A stretch of 9,605 bases of DNA from Helicobacteraceae bacterium (lineage in GTDB: Bacteria > Campylobacterota > Campylobacteria > Campylobacterales > Sulfurimonadaceae): the NCBI GenBank assembly GCA_030613795.1, contig JAUWLG010000034.1, positions 1 to 9,605 of the forward strand, given 5' to 3'. Positions 476-7,026 of this stretch are shown one piece after another. The notes below the pieces were generated by a model. That model was not told the DNA's origin and ran no database searches. It saw nothing but the letters and a program-made list of their open reading frames with translations. A program made the translations under genes and the position numbers. Positions within the stretch are counted from its first letter, which is position 1. Every line of letters begins with the position of its first letter.

Positions 476-616
476 ATGTACAGAACAGACAAAATCAAAC
501 GCATCACACTTATTTTTCTTGCCGCTCTTGCTTCGGGCTATTTTATGTACACTGGTTTCACTATACTGATGTCAGAGGACGAACCTGTTACTGAATCGAC
601 ACAGGGTACCTTTTAA
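476..616 (+). CDS. 46-residue putative single-pass membrane protein
   Basis: I do not recognise a family. The predicted product starts MYRTDKIKRITLIFLAALAS. It has a basic N-terminus (R3, K6, K8, R9), one hydrophobic segment at about residues 10-31, and an acidic, Thr/Ser-rich tail. This is the look of a small inner-membrane protein with the N-terminus inside. Support for its being a gene is the TATAAT box 7 bases upstream and the lack of any other gene here. Its TAA stop (614-616) is completed by the first two bases of hairpin repeat copy 1, so the present C-terminus may have been set by that insertion. An alternative start at 443 would add 11 residues. It could also be a chance ORF. Confidence 0.45.
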   Translation: MYRTDKIKRITLIFLAALASGYFMYTGFTILMSEDEPVTESTQGTF

Positions 617-781
617 CCCGGATTATCCAGTAGAATATCACCAACCTAGTATTCATCATTTGTCTTAGGGCATATGTGAAAAATTATCGCCTAACCTTCA
701 GGTTAAGCTCAAATTTCTCACAAACACCCTAAAACAAAGCATAAACACTAACTTAGTAATCTCTACTGCATAATTCGGGTT
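615..781 (-). repeat. ~167-bp palindromic hairpin repeat, copy 1 (same family as 5868-6035, opposite orientation)
   Basis: Almost the whole element is an imperfect inverted repeat. The ends are AACCCGGATTATCCAGTAGA (615-634) and, read from the other strand, AACCCGAATTATGCAGTAGA (781-762). The arms run to an apical 8-bp stem, GCCTAACC (689-696) with GGTTAAGC (701-708), around a four-base loop (697-700). The reverse complement aligns end to end with copy 2 at roughly 70% identity by eye. Read as minus-strand RNA, arm differences are mostly G.U pairs (about 9, against about 1 A.C). Each end has TA at 614-615 and 781-782, compatible with a TA target duplication as made by IS630/Tc1-type elements. 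It fills the gap between two convergent genes and its ends complete both stop codons. No U-tract follows either end, so it is not a classical intrinsic terminator. It carries no ORF of its own that I can support. Confidence 0.88.
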
Positions 782-1823
782 ACACTTTCAGAGTAACCTC
801 TTTAGGAAACTGCATGGTCACACAGTGCAGTGAACCATGTTGACGGATGAGTACCGAGCAGTCCACACCGATAATCTCTCTTTTTGGAAATGCTTGTTGA
901 ATGATCGCTAACGCCTCTTGGTCATGACGGTCGTTGTAGGTTGGTACAATGACAGCACCGTTGACAATGAGAAAGTTGGCATAAGTGGCAGGCAGCCGCT
1001 CGCCTTCATAGTAGATAGCATCCGTCATCGGCAGAGCGATCAGTCTGAAAGGGTTGCCATCTAAATCTCGAAGTGTCTGAAGCTCTTTTTCCATCTTTGA
1101 CAGTGCCTCAAAATGCTCATCGTTTTCATCTTGGCACCGGACGTAGACGATCGTCTCTCTGTCCGTAAAACGGGCCAGTGTATCGATATGGCTGTCGGTG
1201 TCATCACCGGCCAGATAACCGTGATCTAGCCAGAGTACTTTTTGCGTGCCGAAATTCTCTTTTAAAATATGTTCTATTTCAAATTTTTGGGTCAGTTTGA
1301 TGTTGCGGTTTGGGTTGAGCAGACACTCTGTGGTTGTGAGTAAGATGCCTTTGCCATTGGATTCGATAGCCCCGCCTTCAAGAATAAAACGCTGTTTTTT
1401 GTAGTCAGCATCATAGTAGTCGGCAAGTTTAGAGGTGAGTGCATTGTCGAGCGAGGCATCAAACTTATTGCCCCAACCGGTAAAGGTAAAATCAATCACC
1501 GTCGGCTCACCGTTTTCGATCATAGTAATACCGCCGCAATCTCTTGCCCAGGTGTCATCACTCTCCTCTTGAATAAAATAGATGTTTGCAGTTGTAGAAA
1601 AGTAGGCTTTGACTCTATCAACATCATCACAGACAATCAGACAGTTTTCAAATTTTGCAATACTCATCGCAATGTTTACAAATGTCCGTGAAGCCTCTTG
1701 CAAGTAAGGTGCCCAGTCGCTGTTAGCATGTGGAAAAATGAGTTGTACAAAGGATTGCTCTTCAAATTCACCAGGCAATCGCTTAATTGTCCTTCTATTT
1801 AAATTTTCTTCACGATTTCCCAT
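780..1823 (-). CDS. aguA: agmatine deiminase (agmatine iminohydrolase, PAD_porph family)
   Basis: It hydrolyses agmatine to N-carbamoylputrescine and ammonia on the arginine-decarboxylase route to putrescine, in the cytoplasm. The family signature is complete: RLPGEFEEQSFVQLIFPH near the N-terminus, TWARDCG, EGGAIESNG, DDTDSHID with the catalytic-type His, and the C-terminal HGSLHC with the nucleophilic Cys (about 14 residues from the end). The start is doubtful. Family members normally begin a few residues before RLP, but here that position is an ATT codon (1785-1787). The first ATG upstream (1823) lies inside the heptamer tandem repeat and adds about 12 residues. The open frame continues to an ATG at 1886 that would overlap alr. 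A TTG at 1778, 11 bases after AGAAGGA, is a further option. The stop TAA uses the last two bases of hairpin repeat copy 1. Divergent from alr. Confidence 0.9.
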   Translation of the reverse strand: MGNREENLNRRTIKRLPGEFEEQSFVQLIFPHANSDWAPYLQEASRTFVNIAMSIAKFENCLIVCDDVDRVKAYFSTTANIYFIQEESDDTWARDCGGITMIENGEPTVIDFTFTGWGNKFDASLDNALTSKLADYYDADYKKQRFILEGGAIESNGKGILLTTTECLLNPNRNIKLTQKFEIEHILKENFGTQKVLWLDHGYLAGDDTDSHIDTLARFTDRETIVYVRCQDENDEHFEALSKMEKELQTLRDLDGNPFRLIALPMTDAIYYEGERLPATYANFLIVNGAVIVPTYNDRHDQEALAIIQQAFPKREIIGVDCSVLIRQHGSLHCVTMQFPKEVTLKV

Positions 1824-1849
1824 TTCCGATTTCCCATTTCCGATTTCCC
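1815..1849. repeat. heptamer tandem repeat, five ATTTCCS units
   Basis: Five perfect back-to-back copies of ATTTCC followed by C or G, alternating C, G, C, G, C, which makes a 14-bp higher-order unit. It lies between agmatine deiminase and alr. On the minus strand each 14-bp unit creates an ATG (at 1823 and 1837) in different frames. It ends at the expected -35 region of the alr promoter. Gain or loss of one unit would shift frame or spacing, so this is the kind of tract that can vary in length by slippage. Function is inferred only. Confidence 0.8.
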
Positions 1850-1868
1850 TTGCGAAGCATTCTCTTGC

Positions 1869-1874
1869 TATAAT
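1869..1874 (+). promoter_or_regulatory. TATAAT -10 box of alr, leaderless-type spacing
   Basis: A perfect TATAAT ends 5 bases before the alr ATG (1880), so the expected start of transcription falls on or next to the start codon. No Shine-Dalgarno sequence is visible before the ATG. No good -35 box is present; TTGCGA (1850-1855) would leave a spacer of only 13 bases. The heptamer repeat ends at 1849, about 20 bases upstream. Confidence 0.55.
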
Positions 1875-1879
1875 CGCAC

Positions 1880-2896
1880 ATGGCAATTATTCGACTCAGC
1901 CGCAAGGCATATTTTCATAATCTCGACATTATCGCACAAAAAGTTGGTGCTGTCTCTAAAATAGCGGTGGTCTTAAAAGACAACGCGTATGGGCATGGCC
2001 TTCTTGAGATGGCAAAACTATCACATGAGTATGGCATCAAAGAAGCTGTGGTTCATAATGTTAATGAAGCAAACGAGATAAAAGAGTACTTTGAAAAAAT
2101 ATTAGTTTTTGCAGGGCATGAGTATTTCGTTGATGAGAAGTTGTGCTATGCGATCAATGCACTTTCTCAGATAGAGAAGATGCCGCGCGGCGCTCTTGTT
2201 GAACTGAAAGTCGACACGGGGATGCACCGTAATGGTGTTGCGATGGATGAGGTTGAAAAGGCACTCTCTCAGATCAGTGAACAAGGACTTGTTTTAAAAG
2301 GGGTCTTTACTCACAACCGAAGTGCAGACACTTTGAGCTCTGAGTGGTTTTGGCAGCGAAAAAACTTTGAAAAAGTAAAAGAAAAAGTGTTGGCTCTTCA
2401 AGCTGAATATGGTTATGAAATACCGCGTTTTCACTCATCTAACTCAGCAGCCGCCTTTCGTTTTAAAGAGTTTGACGAAGATCTGGTTCGGGTAGGGATA
2501 GCTGCTTATGGTTGTCTAGAGATGGACGAAACACTTGAGCAACCTGATTTACAACCGGTGATGACATTAACAGCACAAAAAATTGCTACGCGCACACTTC
2601 AACAAGGTGAGCATGTCGGTTATAATGCAACGTTTAGAGCAGAGAAAGAGATGGTTGTCTCAACCTACGATGTAGGTTATGCGGATGGCCTGATCCGAGC
2701 GGCTTCAAACAGGTACACAACACCCGATGGCGAACAACTTCTTGGTCGTATCTCTATGGACAATAGCTCTTTTACAGGTGCAAAAGAAGAGTTGGTGATC
2801 TTTGAGAATGTAAACCGCTATGCTGAAGCTGCCGGGACGATAGGGTATGAGGTGTTAGTAGGCCTGCATCCTGAAATAAAGAGGGTGATTATTTAA
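1880..2896 (+). CDS. alr: alanine racemase
   Basis: A PLP enzyme that interconverts L- and D-alanine to supply D-Ala for peptidoglycan, in the cytoplasm. The N-terminal TIM-barrel begins with the family pattern and carries the Schiff-base lysine K33 in VLKDNAYGHG (31-40). Other family features are VDTGMHRNG (111-119), FTHNRSAD (143-150, the MTHFA-like block), RVGIAAYG (204-211), the second catalytic base Tyr248 in VGYNATF (246-252) and RISMD (290-294). At 338 residues it is somewhat shorter than the usual 355-390, mostly at the C-terminal end. The ATG at 1880 is supported by the conserved IIRLSRKAYFHNLD start and by the -10 box just upstream. Its 3' end overlaps the convergent NlpC/P60 gene by 8 bases. 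Confidence 0.92.
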   Translation: MAIIRLSRKAYFHNLDIIAQKVGAVSKIAVVLKDNAYGHGLLEMAKLSHEYGIKEAVVHNVNEANEIKEYFEKILVFAGHEYFVDEKLCYAINALSQIEKMPRGALVELKVDTGMHRNGVAMDEVEKALSQISEQGLVLKGVFTHNRSADTLSSEWFWQRKNFEKVKEKVLALQAEYGYEIPRFHSSNSAAAFRFKEFDEDLVRVGIAAYGCLEMDETLEQPDLQPVMTLTAQKIATRTLQQGEHVGYNATFRAEKEMVVSTYDVGYADGLIRAASNRYTTPDGEQLLGRISMDNSSFTGAKEELVIFENVNRYAEAAGTIGYEVLVGLHPEIKRVII

Positions 2897-3365
2897 TTCG
2901 TCTCGTCATCCAGTAATGTTTTTTCCAATACCCATTATTCATACTGGAGATAATAACGCCCTTGCTTGAAGAGGCGTGCATAAAGTCACCATTTTGCAAG
3001 TAGATACCAACGTGACGAGTGTTGTAACCTGTTTTGAAAAAGACCAAGTCACTGGTTCTGATGGTCGATCGGGATACTTTTTTTCCGTAGTTGGTTAAAG
3101 ATTTAGTTGTCCTAGGGATCTTCATATTAAAAAGGTCGTAGTAGGCTCTCTGAACAAAGGCAGAACAGTCGATGCCTTGTGAGCCGTAACCGCCAAGTTT
3201 ATAGGGGGTCTGGTGCCATCTGTTGTGATAGGGATAGAGCTTGTCAAGATCATTATGGTTGACATGTTGTGAGGATGTACCAGTGCTTGCAGAACGGGTA
3301 GAACAACCGCTAAACAGTATGAAGATAAGAACTAAGAAAGCAACACGCATATTAAGCGTTTTCAA
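2889..3365 (-). CDS. NlpC/P60-family lipoprotein (probable murein endopeptidase)
   Basis: Predicted lipoprotein of up to 158 residues. The hydrophobic signal MRVAFLVLIFILFSGC ends at lipid-accepting Cys21, with F instead of the usual L at -3 of the lipobox. The NlpC/P60 fold follows: Cys67 in GIDCSAFVQ, His118 in RHVGIYL and His130 in DFMHAS form the expected Cys-His-His set. Such enzymes cut D-Glu to diamino-acid bonds in peptidoglycan stem peptides in the periplasm. It is the last gene of the five-gene operon. The start taken here is TTG at 3365, overlapping the previous stop by 4 bases (TTGA), which suggests translational coupling. An ATG at 3350 is an alternative and would also leave a complete signal peptide. 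The 3' end overlaps alr tail-to-tail by 8 bases. Confidence 0.87.
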   Translation of the reverse strand: MKTLNMRVAFLVLIFILFSGCSTRSASTGTSSQHVNHNDLDKLYPYHNRWHQTPYKLGGYGSQGIDCSAFVQRAYYDLFNMKIPRTTKSLTNYGKKVSRSTIRTSDLVFFKTGYNTRHVGIYLQNGDFMHASSSKGVIISSMNNGYWKKHYWMTRRIK

Positions 3366-3754
3366 TTGCTTATTTTGATGATCGCTTGGGCAAAGATCAC
3401 CCCGTCGATCCCTTCACTGATCTTCTCTTCAAGGTTGGTACCGCTCTCTAGTCGGCACAAGATTTTGGCATCAAAAAGGTAGTTCTCGGCAACATTTTGT
3501 GCTGATTTTGCCAAGTTCTCTTTAACAAGAATGTACTTTGCTCCTAGGTTATGTGCAAAGACCACTTCACTCAAATCAGTTGCTTCAAGTGCAAAAGAGA
3601 GGTGGTTCTGCTGCATATGTTTGATGATGTCGAGATTCTCCTCTTTGAAATGAATAAAGAGAGTACTGTTAGCAGGCGTATGTTCGATCTCATCGATCTC
3701 ATCGATATGATAAAACGGTTCAAAGTCGATGTAAGGGTGGCCAAAAAGAAGCAT
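3362..3754 (-). CDS. conserved-looking hypothetical protein, 130 residues
   Basis: I cannot name a family with confidence. There is no signal peptide or membrane segment, so it should be cytoplasmic. The sequence alternates short hydrophobic strands and helices: STLFIHF (29-35), SFALEA (53-58), AKYILV (72-77), AKILC (95-99), then EGIDGVIFAQAI (113-124). The spacing and the closing GIDGVIF resemble beta/alpha barrel proteins. This is only an impression. An in-frame 9-base repeat gives the local motif IDEIDEIE (17-24). AAGG lies 7 bases before the ATG. It sits between the PP0621-type gene (9-base gap) and the NlpC/P60 gene (4-base overlap), so it is co-translated with envelope genes and rsmG. 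Confidence 0.75.
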   Translation of the reverse strand: MLLFGHPYIDFEPFYHIDEIDEIEHTPANSTLFIHFKEENLDIIKHMQQNHLSFALEATDLSEVVFAHNLGAKYILVKENLAKSAQNVAENYLFDAKILCRLESGTNLEEKISEGIDGVIFAQAIIKISN

Positions 3755-3763
3755 GGTAACGCC

Positions 3764-3991
3764 TTACGCTTTGTCTCGACATTCTGTCGAGCAGTAGAAT
3801 TTTCCTGAAGAGACGATGGCTTCGCTAGTACTGATATAAGTGCCGCAAGTCGCACACTCTATCATGGTCTCTTCATCATCTTTTCTCTTTTTATTGTCAT
3901 GACGCTCTTTAGTAAGTGGGGTGCTTTTTTTGATAAAGAAGAAGTAGATAACAGCGATAACAGCGATAATAAGTAGTATTTTTAATAACAT
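3764..3991 (-). CDS. PP0621-type small membrane protein with zinc-ribbon tail
   Basis: 75 residues. The N-terminal segment (about 2-20) is a strong membrane anchor, followed by a highly charged linker (KERHDNKKRKDDEE). The C-terminal domain ECATCGTYISTSEAIVSSGKFYCSTEC has a C-x2-C...C-x3-C arrangement that should bind one zinc. This combination is known as the PP0621 family, whose function I do not know. An AAGGAG lies 6 bases before the ATG and overlaps the rsmG stop codon, so translation is likely coupled to rsmG. The anchor contains a small in-frame 9-base tandem repeat (IIAVIAVI). Confidence 0.85.
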   Translation of the reverse strand: MLLKILLIIAVIAVIYFFFIKKSTPLTKERHDNKKRKDDEETMIECATCGTYISTSEAIVSSGKFYCSTECRDKA

Positions 3992-4000
3992 GAATTCTCC

Positions 4001-4576
4001 TTAGACTTCGATAACAAGGTAGTGACGGTTTTGTGTCTGAATGACCTTATGGTTCAGTGAAGCATCCACTTCATCAAAAACGCGTTCGCCTTTATAAAAA
4101 AGCAGCTTACTCCCTTTAGAGACAAAAGGTGCGCTCAGTTTCATCAACATAGAGGTCTCTGTTACTGCACGAGAGGTGACAAGGTCGATAGGTCGAGGTT
4201 CCAACTCTTCAACACGGCAGTTTGCAACGGTGACATTTTTGAGCCCAAGATCGGCTTTGATGAACTGCAAAAAGCTGGCGCGTTTTTGCAGGGGTTCGCA
4301 CAAGATGACCTCTGTCTCAGGCAGAGCAAATGCAAGGATCATGCCTGGAAAGCCGGCACCGGTACCGATGTCTAAGATGCTGTTGACCTTAGGCAAAAAA
4401 GAGACAGGAAAGACAGCGTCGTAGATGAACTTGTCCATCAGCTCTTCTTTTTTTGCACCGGTCAGGTTGTGGATCTTGTTCCACTTTTTGAGGTGCTCTT
4501 TATATTTTGTGACATAAGTGAAAAATTGATCATCAAGAGTGATATTGTCTTTTAAAAGTTCTGCTTTTATATTCAC
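4001..4576 (-). CDS. rsmG: 16S rRNA (guanine527-N7)-methyltransferase RsmG (GidB)
   Basis: It methylates N7 of G527 in 16S rRNA using S-adenosylmethionine. The 191-residue protein has the family's N-terminal helical region with [10 protein letters not shown] (31-40). The SAM-binding motif I is [16 protein letters not shown] (67-82), followed by [13 protein letters not shown] (91-103) and TSRAV (134-138) holding the conserved Arg. [10 protein letters not shown] (154-163) closes the Rossmann core. The start is GTG at 4576, with a GAGA-type ribosome binding site 5-9 bases upstream. It is the second gene of the minus-strand operon, with 9-base gaps on both sides. Confidence 0.95.
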
Positions 4577-4585
4577 GTTGATCTC

Positions 4586-5119
4586 TTAAAAAGCATAAAA
4601 TTTATAGTTAAGACCACCATAGAAAGCACCGGCATTGAAGTCAGTGTCTTTACCTTTATAGGTCCAATAGTGACGGTAGGCCAGCTCGACCTCAAAGTCG
4701 GCAGGCAGCATGAAGATCAGTCCTGTCTGCAGACCACCCATAAAAGCTGTTGTAGAGGTAGTGTTAACATCAGCAATAGAAGCGCCCAAGCGTGCACCAA
4801 AAAAGAATTTAGCCGTTGACTTGGCGATAACTTTAAACTCGTCACTGATACCCTCAAGTGCGATGTATGGGTTGAGTGTTTTACTCACTTCATCACCAAT
4901 ATCATCTGAAGAAGTAACGCCAATGTACATACGCCCATTGTCTTCACGAAGACCGATCTTTAGACCGTATTCCGGTCCAAAATCATAGTCGCTTCCTGCT
5001 GTAGCACTTGAGGATTTTGTTCCAGTGATACCGCCTTCGATACCGACAAACCATTCACCGCTTTCAGCTGTCAGAGAGTAAGGAAGTAGAGCAAGAAGTA
5101 AAAATGTGAAAAATTTCAT
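4586..5119 (-). CDS. small outer-membrane beta-barrel-like protein
   Basis: 177 residues. A signal peptide (MKFFTFLLLALLPYSLTA, cleavage near residue 18) is followed by alternating short amphipathic strands rich in Gly, Tyr and Phe, such as EWFVGIEGGITG, YGLKIGLRED and KFFFGARLGASIA. It ends in YGGLNYKFYAF with a terminal Phe, the signal recognised by the BAM machinery. The length suits an 8-stranded barrel. No specific substrate or named family is visible. It is the first gene of the operon leading to rsmG. A weak ribosome binding site (AAGG) lies about 10 bases upstream. A possible -10 (TATGAT, 5160-5165 on this strand) lies in the AT-rich leader, with no convincing -35. Confidence 0.82.
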   Translation of the reverse strand: MKFFTFLLLALLPYSLTAESGEWFVGIEGGITGTKSSSATAGSDYDFGPEYGLKIGLREDNGRMYIGVTSSDDIGDEVSKTLNPYIALEGISDEFKVIAKSTAKFFFGARLGASIADVNTTSTTAFMGGLQTGLIFMLPADFEVELAYRHYWTYKGKDTDFNAGAFYGGLNYKFYAF

Positions 5120-5199
5120 TGAAAATCTACCTTAGAATAATTGAATTTATTTGACTCTTATCATATAACATCTGCACTAAAAAGAACTTCATCGTCAAT

Positions 5200-5229
5200 G
5201 TAAAAAGAGGTGTTGGCAATACTTTTTAC
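5200..5229 (-). terminator. possible terminator hairpin after ribA
   Basis: GTAAAAAG (5200-5207) and CTTTTTAC (5222-5229) form an 8-bp inverted repeat with a 14-base loop. It overlaps the ribA stop codon and precedes the next gene on the same strand. The U-run lies within the stem's 3' arm rather than after it, and the stem is AT-rich. It is a weak terminator at best. Confidence 0.35.
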
Positions 5230-5789
5230 AGTAAATGACCCATCTTGTCTTTCTTGACTTGAAGATAATCCTCGTTATGCACATTGGCATCAATAATGAT
5301 AGGCAGTCGTTCTATGATCTCAATATTTTCCAAAGAGTTGATCTTGTTGGGATTGTTGGTGAGCAGGCGGACCTTCTTAATATTAAAATGCTCCAAGATC
5401 GTGGTGACGATCTCATAGGTGCGTTCATCTGCAGCAAATCCAAGTTGGTGGTTGGCCTCGATGGTGTTAAGGCCCTTGTCTTGCAGTGCATAAGCATTGA
5501 TCTTGTTAAGCAGACCGATGTTACGACCCTCTTGACGCAGATAGATCACCATACCGCCCTCACTTTCAACGGTGTGCAGTGCAAATGCGAGTTGGTCACC
5601 ACAGTCGCATTTAAGACTGCCCAGTGCGTCACCTGTTAAACACTCCGAGTGAACACGAACAATTGGGGCGTCATCTAAAGGCTCTTTGTAGATGACAAGA
5701 TGCTCTTTATGCGCTTCTTTAAAAGCCTTGACATTAAAATTGCCAAAACGTGACGGCAGCTTGGCAACTTCTGATATTTTTATCTTCAT
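5226..5789 (-). CDS. ribA: GTP cyclohydrolase II
   Basis: It opens GTP to 2,5-diamino-6-ribosylamino-pyrimidinone phosphate, formate and pyrophosphate, the first step of riboflavin synthesis. In the 187-residue protein, Cys50, Cys61 and Cys63 (SECLTGD...KCDCGDQL) are the zinc ligands. LRQEGRNIGL (84-93), DERTYE (121-126, containing the catalytic Asp and Arg) and LLTNNPNKI (142-150) are family blocks, and it ends in the usual GHLL. It is a stand-alone RibA, not the RibBA fusion. The ATG at 5789 gives the standard MKIKISEVAKLPSRFG beginning. A 25-residue upstream extension to 5864 is open but would start in promoter DNA, and is rejected. No strong Shine-Dalgarno is visible. Divergent from hemB, with hairpin repeat copy 2 between them. 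Confidence 0.95.
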   Translation of the reverse strand: MKIKISEVAKLPSRFGNFNVKAFKEAHKEHLVIYKEPLDDAPIVRVHSECLTGDALGSLKCDCGDQLAFALHTVESEGGMVIYLRQEGRNIGLLNKINAYALQDKGLNTIEANHQLGFAADERTYEIVTTILEHFNIKKVRLLTNNPNKINSLENIEIIERLPIIIDANVHNEDYLQVKKDKMGHLL

Positions 5790-5826
5790 ATTTTCTATTC
5801 TACTTATTTTTAATAATCTAATCGAT

Positions 5827-5849
5827 ATTATATAGTCAATAGAATTATA
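5827..5849 (-). promoter_or_regulatory. probable ribA promoter, two TATAAT boxes
   Basis: On the minus strand perfect TATAAT boxes lie at 5844-5849 and 5827-5832. The nearer one would give a leader of roughly 30 bases before the ribA ATG. No good -35 is found at the right distance. For the outer box, the -35 position would fall at the end of hairpin repeat copy 2. Confidence 0.45.
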
Positions 5850-5867
5850 CATAAAAATTATCACTTA

Positions 5868-6035
5868 AACCCGAATCATGCAGTAGAGATTGCGAAAATA
5901 GTGTTTATACCTTGTGCTAGGAGGTTTGCAGAAGATCTTAGCTTAACCAAAAGGTTAGGCGGTGATTTTCTTGTGTGCCTCATGGTGCAAGGGATGAATG
6001 CTAGTTTTGTGATATTTTACTGCATGATTCGGGTT
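5868..6035 (+). repeat. ~168-bp palindromic hairpin repeat, copy 2 (same family as 615-781, opposite orientation)
   Basis: Both termini share the same 18 bases, AACCCGAATCATGCAGTA, in inverted orientation (5868-5885 and 6035-6018). The arms continue inward to an apical stem, GCTTAACC (5941-5948) with GGTTAGGC (5953-5960), closed by an AAAA loop. Read as plus-strand RNA, about 15 arm differences are G.U pairs and only about 2 are A.C. Relative to copy 1, paired positions have changed together: 5877/6026, 5911/5991, 5917/5985, 5922/5980, 5929/5973 and 5930/5972. Both copies have an extra base at the same place in one arm (here 6004). TA follows the right end (6035-6036), but the left side reads AA, so a target duplication is not clear. 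It separates divergent ribA and hemB and ends 22 bases before hemB, so it is either the hemB leader or contains the hemB promoter. Confidence 0.88.
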
Positions 6036-6057
6036 AAATATTTCAAAGGTCCAAGAA

Positions 6058-7026
6058 ATGTTCCAACGCTTTCGCCGTAACCGTTTAAACCCACATCTTC
6101 GTGCACTTGTCCGTGAGACACATGTCTCAACTGATGACTTTATCTACCCGCTGTTTGTACGTCCTGGTAAGGGCATTAAAACTGAAGTTGCTTCAATGCC
6201 GGGTGTTTTTCAGATGAGTATTGATGAGGCTATCAAAGAGTGTGACGAACTTAAGACTTTAGGTCTTAACTCTATTATATTGTTTGGTATTCCTGAAACA
6301 AAAGATTCTGTAGGTTCAGATGCACTTTGTGAGCATGGGATCATCGCTGAAGCGGTACGTGCTATCAAAAAAGCACATCCTGATATGTTTGTCGTGACGG
6401 ACCTCTGTTTTTGTGAGTACACAGATCATGGACATTGCGGGATCATTGATCATGTACATGAGACGGTAGATAATGATGCGACCTTGGAAATCTCTGGTAA
6501 ACAAGCTATCGTGCATGCCAAAGCAGGAGCAGACATGATCGCACCGTCTGGGATGATGGACGGCATTATCGAGACACTTCGAACCGCACTGGATGAAGGC
6601 GGGTATGAGAACTTGCCGATTATGAGTTATTCGACTAAATTTTCAAGCGGTTATTACGGTCCGTTTCGTGATGTAGCGGAGTCTACGCCATCTTTTGGCG
6701 ATCGCGGTTCTTACCAGATGGACCCGGCAAATCGCCGTGAAGCGATCAATGAGAGTATTGCTGATGAAGCACAGGGTGCTGATATCTTGATGGTGAAACC
6801 AGCCTTGGCGTATCTTGATATTATTCGTGATATTAAAGAGAATACCCGTCTTCCGCTTGCTATCTATAATGTCAGTGGCGAGTACGCAATGCTTAAATAT
6901 GCAGGAGAAAAAGGCCTCATCGATTATGATCGTGTCATGATGGAGACTATGATCGCTTTTAAACGCGCAGGCGCTGATATTATTATCTCATACCATGCAA
7001 AAGAAGTGGCAAAGCTTTTAGGATAA
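6058..7026 (+). CDS. hemB: delta-aminolevulinic acid dehydratase (porphobilinogen synthase)
   Basis: It condenses two 5-aminolevulinate molecules to porphobilinogen in haem synthesis, in the cytoplasm. The 322-residue protein is full length. Zinc-site cysteines are Cys117, Cys119 and Cys127 in [14 protein letters not shown], so it is of the zinc-dependent type. The substrate lysines are Lys194 ([16 protein letters not shown]) and the Schiff-base Lys247 ([10 protein letters not shown]). The N-terminal [18 protein letters not shown] is typical. AAAGG lies 8 bases before the ATG. Only 22 bases separate it from hairpin repeat copy 2, so its promoter must be within or beyond that repeat. It leads a probable operon with the next two genes (gap of 9 bases, then a 4-base overlap). 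Confidence 0.97.

Follow-up and report, generated by a model that had tools for sequence, protein, structure and literature searches.

A dispersed element of the Campylobacterales with IS1380-type ends and an interior that may be selected to fold as RNA from one strand

The 9,605-nucleotide stretch analyzed here (the window) is the whole of contig JAUWLG010000034.1 (C167) of a Helicobacteraceae bacterium, assembly GCA_030613795.1, whose 1.74-Mb genome is 72% complete and lies in 314 contigs. It carries two copies of a short repeated element, each of which folds on itself nearly end to end. Copy 1 (617-779, 163 bp) is read on the minus strand and copy 2 (5870-6033, 164 bp) on the plus strand, this being in each case the strand on which differences between the two arms of the hairpin appear as G.U rather than A.C pairs (the G.U strand in what follows). 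Copy 1 adjoins, directly after its stop codon, a PAD_porph or agmatine-deiminase-like gene (780-1886, minus), which agmatine deiminase models score below their cut-offs, and copy 2 sits between the divergent genes ribA (5226-5864, minus) and hemB (6058-7026, plus). Copy 2 is bordered by identical TTAAA pentamers at 5865-5869 and 6034-6038; the flanks of copy 1, TTTAA at 612-616 and TTACA at 780-784 (the latter containing the stop codon of the neighboring gene), match at three of five positions and are read as a decayed duplication. An earlier note on this DNA had reported the two hairpins at these places, with ends that take in part of the duplicated target.

Comparison of the two copies with each other bears out most of what that note had described. 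On the G.U strand, the predicted folding energies are -97.6 and -94.4 kcal/mol, with z scores of -14.6 and -15.4 relative to shuffled sequences, in agreement with the folding claimed for each copy, whereas the opposite strands reach only -53.5 and -54.5 kcal/mol. Each copy forms 73 predicted pairs, among which G.U pairs number 16 in copy 2 and 11 in copy 1; the opposite strand has 0 and 1, respectively. The six arm positions at which both partners were said to differ between the copies while pairing is kept have the letters given and are paired in both predicted folds. The arm-to-arm G.U:A.C ratios of 15:2 and 9:1 are closely approached in a symmetric DNA self-alignment (16:0 and 10:1), but the identity between the copies, put at about 70%, is somewhat higher when measured, at 77% over 171 query bases. 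The apical 8-bp stem is constant, as had been stated, and closes an AAAA loop in copy 2 (5941-5960, plus) and a UGAA loop in copy 1 (689-708, minus). In copy 2 this stem together with a T run resembles a terminator on the G.U strand (one such site, with a mean of 0.2 in shuffles), a reading dropped because the T run is part of the 3' arm. The stem may also resemble the core boxes of attC sites and the T arm of tRNAs. The note's account did not include the identity of the element as a transposable element, the concentration of the bias in its interior, its independence of neighboring genes, or a conserved two-by-two internal loop. In copy 1, the fold places this loop at 739-740 (5' side, GC) and 657-658 (3' side, UG), both on the minus strand; the aligned columns of copy 2 lie on the plus strand at 5909-5910 (AC) and 5992-5993 (GG), shifted by one base to 5908-5909 and 5993-5994 in the minimum-energy fold of that copy.

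The two copies belong to a family with seven full copies in the genome of the window, as found by BLAST and covariance models. Two such models were used: R1, with 105 positions, built from four copies of this genome, and R2, with 162 positions, built from 26 copies; R2 matches copies 1 and 2 with E values of 4.5e-26 and 5.9e-23, respectively. At E <=0.1, R1 matches 20 of 200 genomes sampled from the taxonomic family, and R2, at E <=0.001, in 41 of its 228 genomes. In a class-wide sample, matches occur in 20 of 397 genomes, all 20 of them in the order of the window and distributed over six families. Some genomes are especially rich, with 63 (G015) and 78 (G361) rows of matches, both strands counted; 26 and 36 copies were examined from these two genomes, and seven from that of the window. 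Among 93 other loci, high-scoring, full-length R2 matches come from Sulfurovum, Sulfurospirillum, Nitratifractor, and unclassified metagenome-assembled genomes (MAGs) of the Campylobacterales. Weak R2 matches are seen as well, in an unnamed bin (L284, E 4e-9), in Bacteroidota (E 8e-7 for Aureitalea), and, at E 2e-4 to 5e-4, in Tenacibaculum, Labilibacter, Melioribacteraceae, and Chitinivibrionales. No Rfam family matched the whole window at gathering scores, or positions 5800-6100 at E values up to 1. Among the titles and opening lines of abstracts listed, open-license papers yielded no description of this element, which is weak evidence of absence.

The counts below rest on a set of 112 copies, enlarged by 60 more to 172 copies from 46 genomes, for which sequence was sampled at 80 places in a first round and 60 in a second. 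Left out of the 172 are partial, shortened, or weak matches (for example, G015:C122, G026:C74, G203:C36, G154:C102, G209, G009, and G002), a shorter copy (G006:C80), an end fragment (C219), the matches in G444 and G280 (L101, L102), and full-length matches in named records together with further copies in G448, G534, G275, G419, G567, G471, G431, G269, and others. In two species (G001 and G006; L018, L021), what is apparently the same old insertion, with flanks that are similar by eye, holds weakly paired copies (-44 kcal/mol), as if decaying.

The element is short (157-168 bp), non-coding, and dispersed, and so has the character of a miniature inverted-repeat transposable element (MITE). Both of its ends are inverted repeats of the form CCCRAATTATGCAATAG. 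Within the window these lie at 5870-5886 (plus) and 6017-6033 (minus) in copy 2, as read from sequence and consensus, and at 763-779 (minus) and 617-633 (plus) in copy 1, the latter, which is the 3' end on the element strand, with two differences from the consensus. When the ends are set at CCC and GGG, a target duplication of exactly 5 bp is perfect in 71 of the 112 copies, whereas 1000 shuffles of the partners gave a mean of 10.1 perfect repeats and a maximum of 19; alternative duplication lengths were found in 0-4 copies and shifted boundaries in 0-1. In the larger set, 106 of 172 copies have perfect 5-bp duplications. Copies with decayed duplications, taken as older, have fewer Watson-Crick pairs (p 3e-5), with only a weak rise in A.C counts (p 0.09).

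A scan with the end pattern, covering at least 120 stretches, shows that these ends are not confined to this element. Among the matches listed, other phyla have MITEs that combine such ends and similar 5-bp duplications with other interiors. Elements with the same 17-bp end and differing interiors were seen in Bacteroidota, Melioribacter, Omnitrophota, and Chitinivibrionales (L184, L200-L203, L222, L224, L242, L298, and others). In viral contigs, the pattern occurred in 0 contigs (longer pattern) and 4 contigs, and no facing second end was found within 6 kb at 13/17. Short versions with perfect duplications are among L190, L192, L212, L214, L216, L217, L237, L239, and L265, and a 74-bp form stands at three places of one Sulfurospirillum MAG (L216, L217, and L299, the last with an imperfect duplication).

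Several elements that carry their own transposase have nearly the same ends. Plasmid pACIB of Aliarcobacter cibarius (L330) carries an IS1380 element of 1470 bp whose 429-residue transposase is intact; both ends of the element match the MITE consensus at 16 of 17 positions, and ATAAT stands on both sides of it. This transposase is annotated as belonging to the IS1380 family and was found by its similarity to a protein of a Bacteroidetes MAG (L249). In that MAG, the gene of an IS1380 transposase, cut by the contig end, adjoins an exact MITE end; the gene product scores 189.7 bits with NF033539 (cut-off 180) and 118.8 with PF13701 (cut-off 34.7). An intact IS1380 element with three copies in G471 has the cousin ends CCCAAATCCGTAAATAG and, where checked, the duplication TTAAA. 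In G275, a TTTTGC variant is common to one end of a truncated insertion sequence and one MITE end. Among 19 carrier genomes, the IS1380-type domain PF13701 is found in four and exceeds its cut-off in three. Relatives of the L249 protein at E <=1e-10 occur in eight of 228 genomes of the taxonomic family, at only 22-23% identity except for one short fragment, and none was found at that threshold in the genome of the window. A short-word comparison of the 172 copies with the L330 element (E <=0.01) assigned 62 of 65 matches to the ends of the insertion sequence and three to its interior. Because such ends and duplications flank an intact IS1380 transposase gene, transposases of this type are, judging from sequence, the likely movers of the MITEs. 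Two other transposase-bearing elements were seen. One (L308, G431:C1:1315125-1316363) is an IS1380 transposase copy with four stop codons in the matched region; a 384-residue stretch of it is 95% identical to the intact G471 protein. The other is a further DDE element, in three copies in G351 (L310, L314, L316), with ends ACTCAACTTTCGCA and a score below the PF13701 cut-off.

Covariation was measured at 35 named pairs of a MAFFT alignment of 26 copies, all from family f1. Standard pairs fill 96.1% of the cells, as against 76.8% in shuffled alignments and 39.8-42.3% when partners are slid; since the RNAalifold structure was derived from the same alignment, this percentage is favored, and the counts of two-sided changes are the firmer measure. 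Such changes are found at 31 of the 35 pairs, two of which show all six standard types. The covariation score is 0.592, compared with 0.209 in shuffles, and none of 500 shuffles, which serve as the null here, was as high. The dispersed repeat family proposed in the earlier note is borne out by copies gathered with covariance models.

A second conserved property is the two-by-two internal loop. Its exact form, U[GC]U/A[UG]A, occurs in 122 of 172 folds, copy 1 among them, and outnumbers every other form in 39 of 46 genomes. The loop also serves as a check of orientation by a feature that is not a transition, needed because the model picks the strand partly by its G.U letters: GCTT stands at the place of the loop in 140 copies on the G.U strand and in four on its mirror, and 106 of 172 copies carry the motif pair ATGCTT..AATGAT on the G.U strand, while none carries it on the other.

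Strand bias was counted from arms aligned as DNA, without an energy model. Over the 172 copies there are 9910 Watson-Crick pairs, 1656 G.U, 252 A.C, and 1865 other mismatches. Every one of the 172 copies and 46 genomes has more G.U than A.C, so that the inequality first noticed in the two copies of the window persists with more data. A fair-coin null in which the strand is chosen for each copy puts 1181 on the major side on average, and never more than 1229 in 2000 draws, where 1656 was observed. The ratio of G.U to A.C is far from uniform along the arm, being 3.0 at positions 1-16, 3.1 at 17-32, 18.7 at 33-72 (1177 to 63), and 1.8 at 73-80. The bias is present in each of the families f1, f4, f7, f8, f9, and f11, with f7 represented by one copy and f8 by two. 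Other mismatches are also unequal on the same strand outside the loop zone: U.U exceeds A.A in 34 genomes and falls behind in 4, with 8 ties, and G.A exceeds C.U in 44 genomes and falls behind in 1, with 1 tie. The stability of RNA predicts an excess of U.U over A.A. Two individual copies depart from the usual pattern. A full-length copy in G014 (C113:22424-22586, L140) is poorly biased, with 12 G.U and 8 A.C pairs. In the copy at G000:C58:3600-3760 (L026:1472-1632), the apex, read by eye, is inverted relative to the arms, and two A.C pairs lie in the inverted apex with a third at the loop, which agrees with polarity being inherited segment by segment.

Whether the excess reflects the supply of mutations can be approached through private changes, that is, changes relative to close relatives within a genome. 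Genomes with fewer than four distinct copies, and copies with fewer than three neighbors at 80% identity, were left out; nine genome groups entered, with G000 yielding no changes. Watson-Crick pairs had changed to G.U 41 times, to A.C 21 times, and to other combinations 19 times. A proportion of 41:21 differs from 1:1 (p 0.015) and much more strongly from the standing ratio of 6.6:1 (p 2.6e-5); without G044, which contributes 14 of the 62 changes (12 and 2), it becomes 29:19, with p 0.19 against 1:1 and 4.8e-6 against the standing ratio. All private transitions taken together are balanced, at 71 to 74. Since new changes arise at roughly 2:1, far below the standing ratio, mutation bias fails to explain the excess, and the interior G.U excess has therefore arisen through selection or through differential spread of lineages.

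Elements with the same ends and other interiors provide a control. Twenty-eight were folded, and the 20 from phyla other than Campylobacterota were summed. On the lower-energy strand these have 101 G.U and 54 A.C pairs, with G.U ahead in 15, behind in 3, and tied in 2. Against the fair-coin null, the major side totals 108 where the mean is 99.4 (P 0.02); the value becomes 0.12 without three Myroides copies (4:0, 5:0, and 4:0) and 0.002 when a Chitinivibrionales copy outside the sum of 20 (12:1) is added. The one-sided elements, Myroides L222, L224, and L275 and Chitinivibrionales L282, are possibly independent RNA hairpins.

The relation of the copies to neighboring genes was assessed with a simple open reading frame (ORF) caller on the 112 copies. 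The G.U strand is sense to both neighbors in 22 and antisense to both in 27; 33 copies lie between divergent genes and 11 between convergent genes, and for 8 one neighbor is missing. Only 11 copies fall inside called ORFs (8 antisense, 3 sense), leaving 101 outside. Copies sense to both neighbors and copies antisense to both have similar numbers of Watson-Crick pairs, G.U, A.C, and mismatches (p 0.32-0.79). As the favored strand is not tied to the neighbors, these results count, indirectly, against an ordinary role inside host mRNA and in favor of one for the element's own RNA or for a single DNA strand.

Taken together, these observations are best explained, with modest confidence, by a non-coding MITE with IS1380-type ends that is likely moved by an IS1380 transposase and whose interior is likely selected to fold as RNA from one strand. 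Of the interpretation offered in the earlier note, selection on an RNA hairpin encoded by a dispersed family, the family and the selection on pairing of one strand stand, and the identity of the folded molecule as RNA rather than DNA is only likely. A number of findings weigh against the explanation as a whole. The search for IS1380 found no match in 15 of the 19 carrier genomes, including the 72%-complete genome of the window itself. Short end pairs of 42-123 bp from which most of the hairpin is gone have perfect duplications in 10 of 17 cases, so that the interior either is not required for insertion or was lost later. The same-end control is not clean, being near unbiased as a set with a few one-sided exceptions, and copy 2 departs from the conserved loop form, with AC/GG in the aligned columns. 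The search for members used pairing models, which possibly favor well-paired copies. DNA folding parameters prefer the same strand as RNA parameters. No cis effect on host mRNA is visible from orientation or pairing, an indirect test. Nor is there a sign of a promoter in the places searched: no sigma-70-like sites in 5780-6080, no conserved -10 box in the element consensus as read by eye, and -10-like boxes in the 45 bp upstream of 23 of 112 copies as compared with 21 of 112 in the mirrored orientation.

The main rival holds that it is single-stranded DNA that folds into the hairpin, for instance at a replication fork or during DNA uptake, with G.T kept over A.C on the folding strand. The folding energies of the two strands accommodate it, at -38.9 and -23.9 kcal/mol with DNA parameters in the same order as -94.0 and -50.4 with RNA parameters; a polarity intrinsic to the element rather than set by its neighbors is what a DNA process would give, and a few same-end elements elsewhere, those of Myroides and Chitinivibrionales, are one-sided too. 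A DDE transposase that meets the same inverted repeat at both ends should nevertheless have no strand preference, and the bias is only 3:1 near the ends, where a transposase would act, as against 18.7:1 inside. Because the bias peaks well away from the ends, is weak in MITEs that have these ends in other phyla and as a set lie near the fair-coin null, and is accompanied by an excess of U.U over A.A that, from the counts and general thermodynamics, suits RNA better, the folded molecule is likely RNA rather than one DNA strand, and folding of DNA alone seems rather unlikely. A role in cis, in which the hairpin lies in untranslated regions of host transcripts and tunes mRNA stability, as proposed for ERIC, NEMIS, and YPAL, was the role expected at the outset. 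It has precedents in the accounts given in PMC10969869 and PMC2229807, and the mostly intergenic location of the copies (101 of 112) and the preponderance of divergent over convergent gene pairs (33 to 11) are compatible with it. It is set back by neighbor orientation, with 22 copies sense and 27 antisense to both neighbors and, within called ORFs, more antisense than sense copies, and by the similar pairing counts of the two orientations, and is judged unlikely.

Two further explanations can be considered. According to one, arm-to-arm gene conversion combined with strand-biased mutation produces both the paired changes and the G.U excess. Conversion would indeed put changes on both arms; pairing is nearly perfect over the terminal 16 bp, the inverted apex of the C58 copy is a sign of recombination between arms, and G.U is favored among private changes at Watson-Crick pairs. 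The explanation requires, however, that new mutations be biased 6.6:1, where 41:21, or 29:19 without G044, was found. The balance of private transitions points the same way, but by itself is also compatible with equilibrium and so refutes nothing. Some pairs commonly take both the G.U and the U.G form, and an excess of G.A over C.U in 44 genomes to 1 is not a G/T mutation bias; the explanation is accordingly very improbable. The other would have the bias be a relic of one founder, enhanced by the search bias of pairing models. All counted copies do share a single polarity, and R1 and R2, both derived from G.U-rich copies, reward pairing in their scores. Against this, pair identities turn over, with two-sided changes at 31 of 35 pairs, so that the G.U pairs are not simply preserved; the models also detect many copies on the opposite strand, at scores tens of bits lower; and the bias is seen separately in each of the six families, two of which contribute only one and two copies. 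A founder relic can be given little credence.

Among known systems, the element is nearest in kind to MITEs whose transcripts fold, such as NEMIS, ERIC, and YPAL, while differing in size or duplication from their descriptions as far as these sources give them. ERIC is described as a 127-bp enterobacterial MITE with an RNA conformation proposed to affect mRNA stability in an orientation-dependent manner (PMC2229807, PMC10969869). Like ERIC, the present element is small and dispersed through many species of one bacterial group; compared by description, it differs in its ends (CCCRAATTATGCAATAG), 5-bp duplications, IS1380-type partners, and the absence of an orientation effect in the copies analyzed. 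YPAL, or RU-2, of Yersinia is given as about 168 bp, palindromic, intergenic, and making target duplications (PMC2229807), all of which are points of resemblance, but with duplications of 3 to 26 bp and internal inverted repeats in that account, where the present element has exactly 5 bp and terminal repeats. NEMIS, or Correia, elements of Neisseria are MITEs that form RNA stem-loops in transcripts cut by RNase III (PMC10969869, PMC2229807); their host group and their sizes, about 107 and 155 bp as reported there, are different, and RNase III cleavage of the present element is a guess. An identity with REP/RAYT, in which a palindrome of 20-40 bp has a GTAG or CGTC end according to the account in PMC3733652, was considered and set aside, the element being 157-168 bp long with CCC..GGG ends and 5-bp duplications. 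With IS1380 elements it shares nearly the same terminal repeat, a 5-bp A+T-rich duplication, and occurrence in the same order, but essentially only the ends are common to both. The MITEs of Bacteroidota and other phyla share the 17-bp end and 5-bp duplication and have other interiors.

If the explanation by a mobile element with an RNA-forming interior is correct, its operation can be sketched as follows. An IS1380 transposase would act in trans on the MITE copies, including those in genomes with no IS1380 gene detected. The G.U strand would be transcribed and the RNA would fold into the long hairpin, in which a double-strand-RNA-binding enzyme, with RNase III as the first candidate and a guess, is predicted to recognize the two-by-two internal loop. 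Cleavage is predicted to free a discrete RNA, which would act away from the site of insertion because the favored strand is not that of the neighboring genes. Lineages of the element with an intact fold would outlast those in which it is lost. A bolder and more tentative proposal is that this order-wide MITE lineage carries its own hairpin RNA, distinct from an mRNA element, undergoing compensatory evolution through G.U steps in either orientation of the copy and bearing a partner-binding loop, which acts in trans for the element or for the cell.

Folding of bacterial MITEs in transcripts has, in the accounts cited above, been described in terms of the effects of insertions on neighboring genes. 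In the lineage described here, which extends over six families of one order, covariation is combined with a polarity independent of neighbors, so that selection seems to be on the element's own RNA. The findings connect IS1380 transposases with a repeat present in large numbers in some Campylobacterales genomes, offer the little-biased MITEs with the same ends as a comparison set, and raise a testable question about the role of the RNA and the partner of its conserved loop. If the bolder proposal is true, the element would amount to a non-coding RNA gene, selfish or domesticated, for whose spread IS1380 transposases are responsible.

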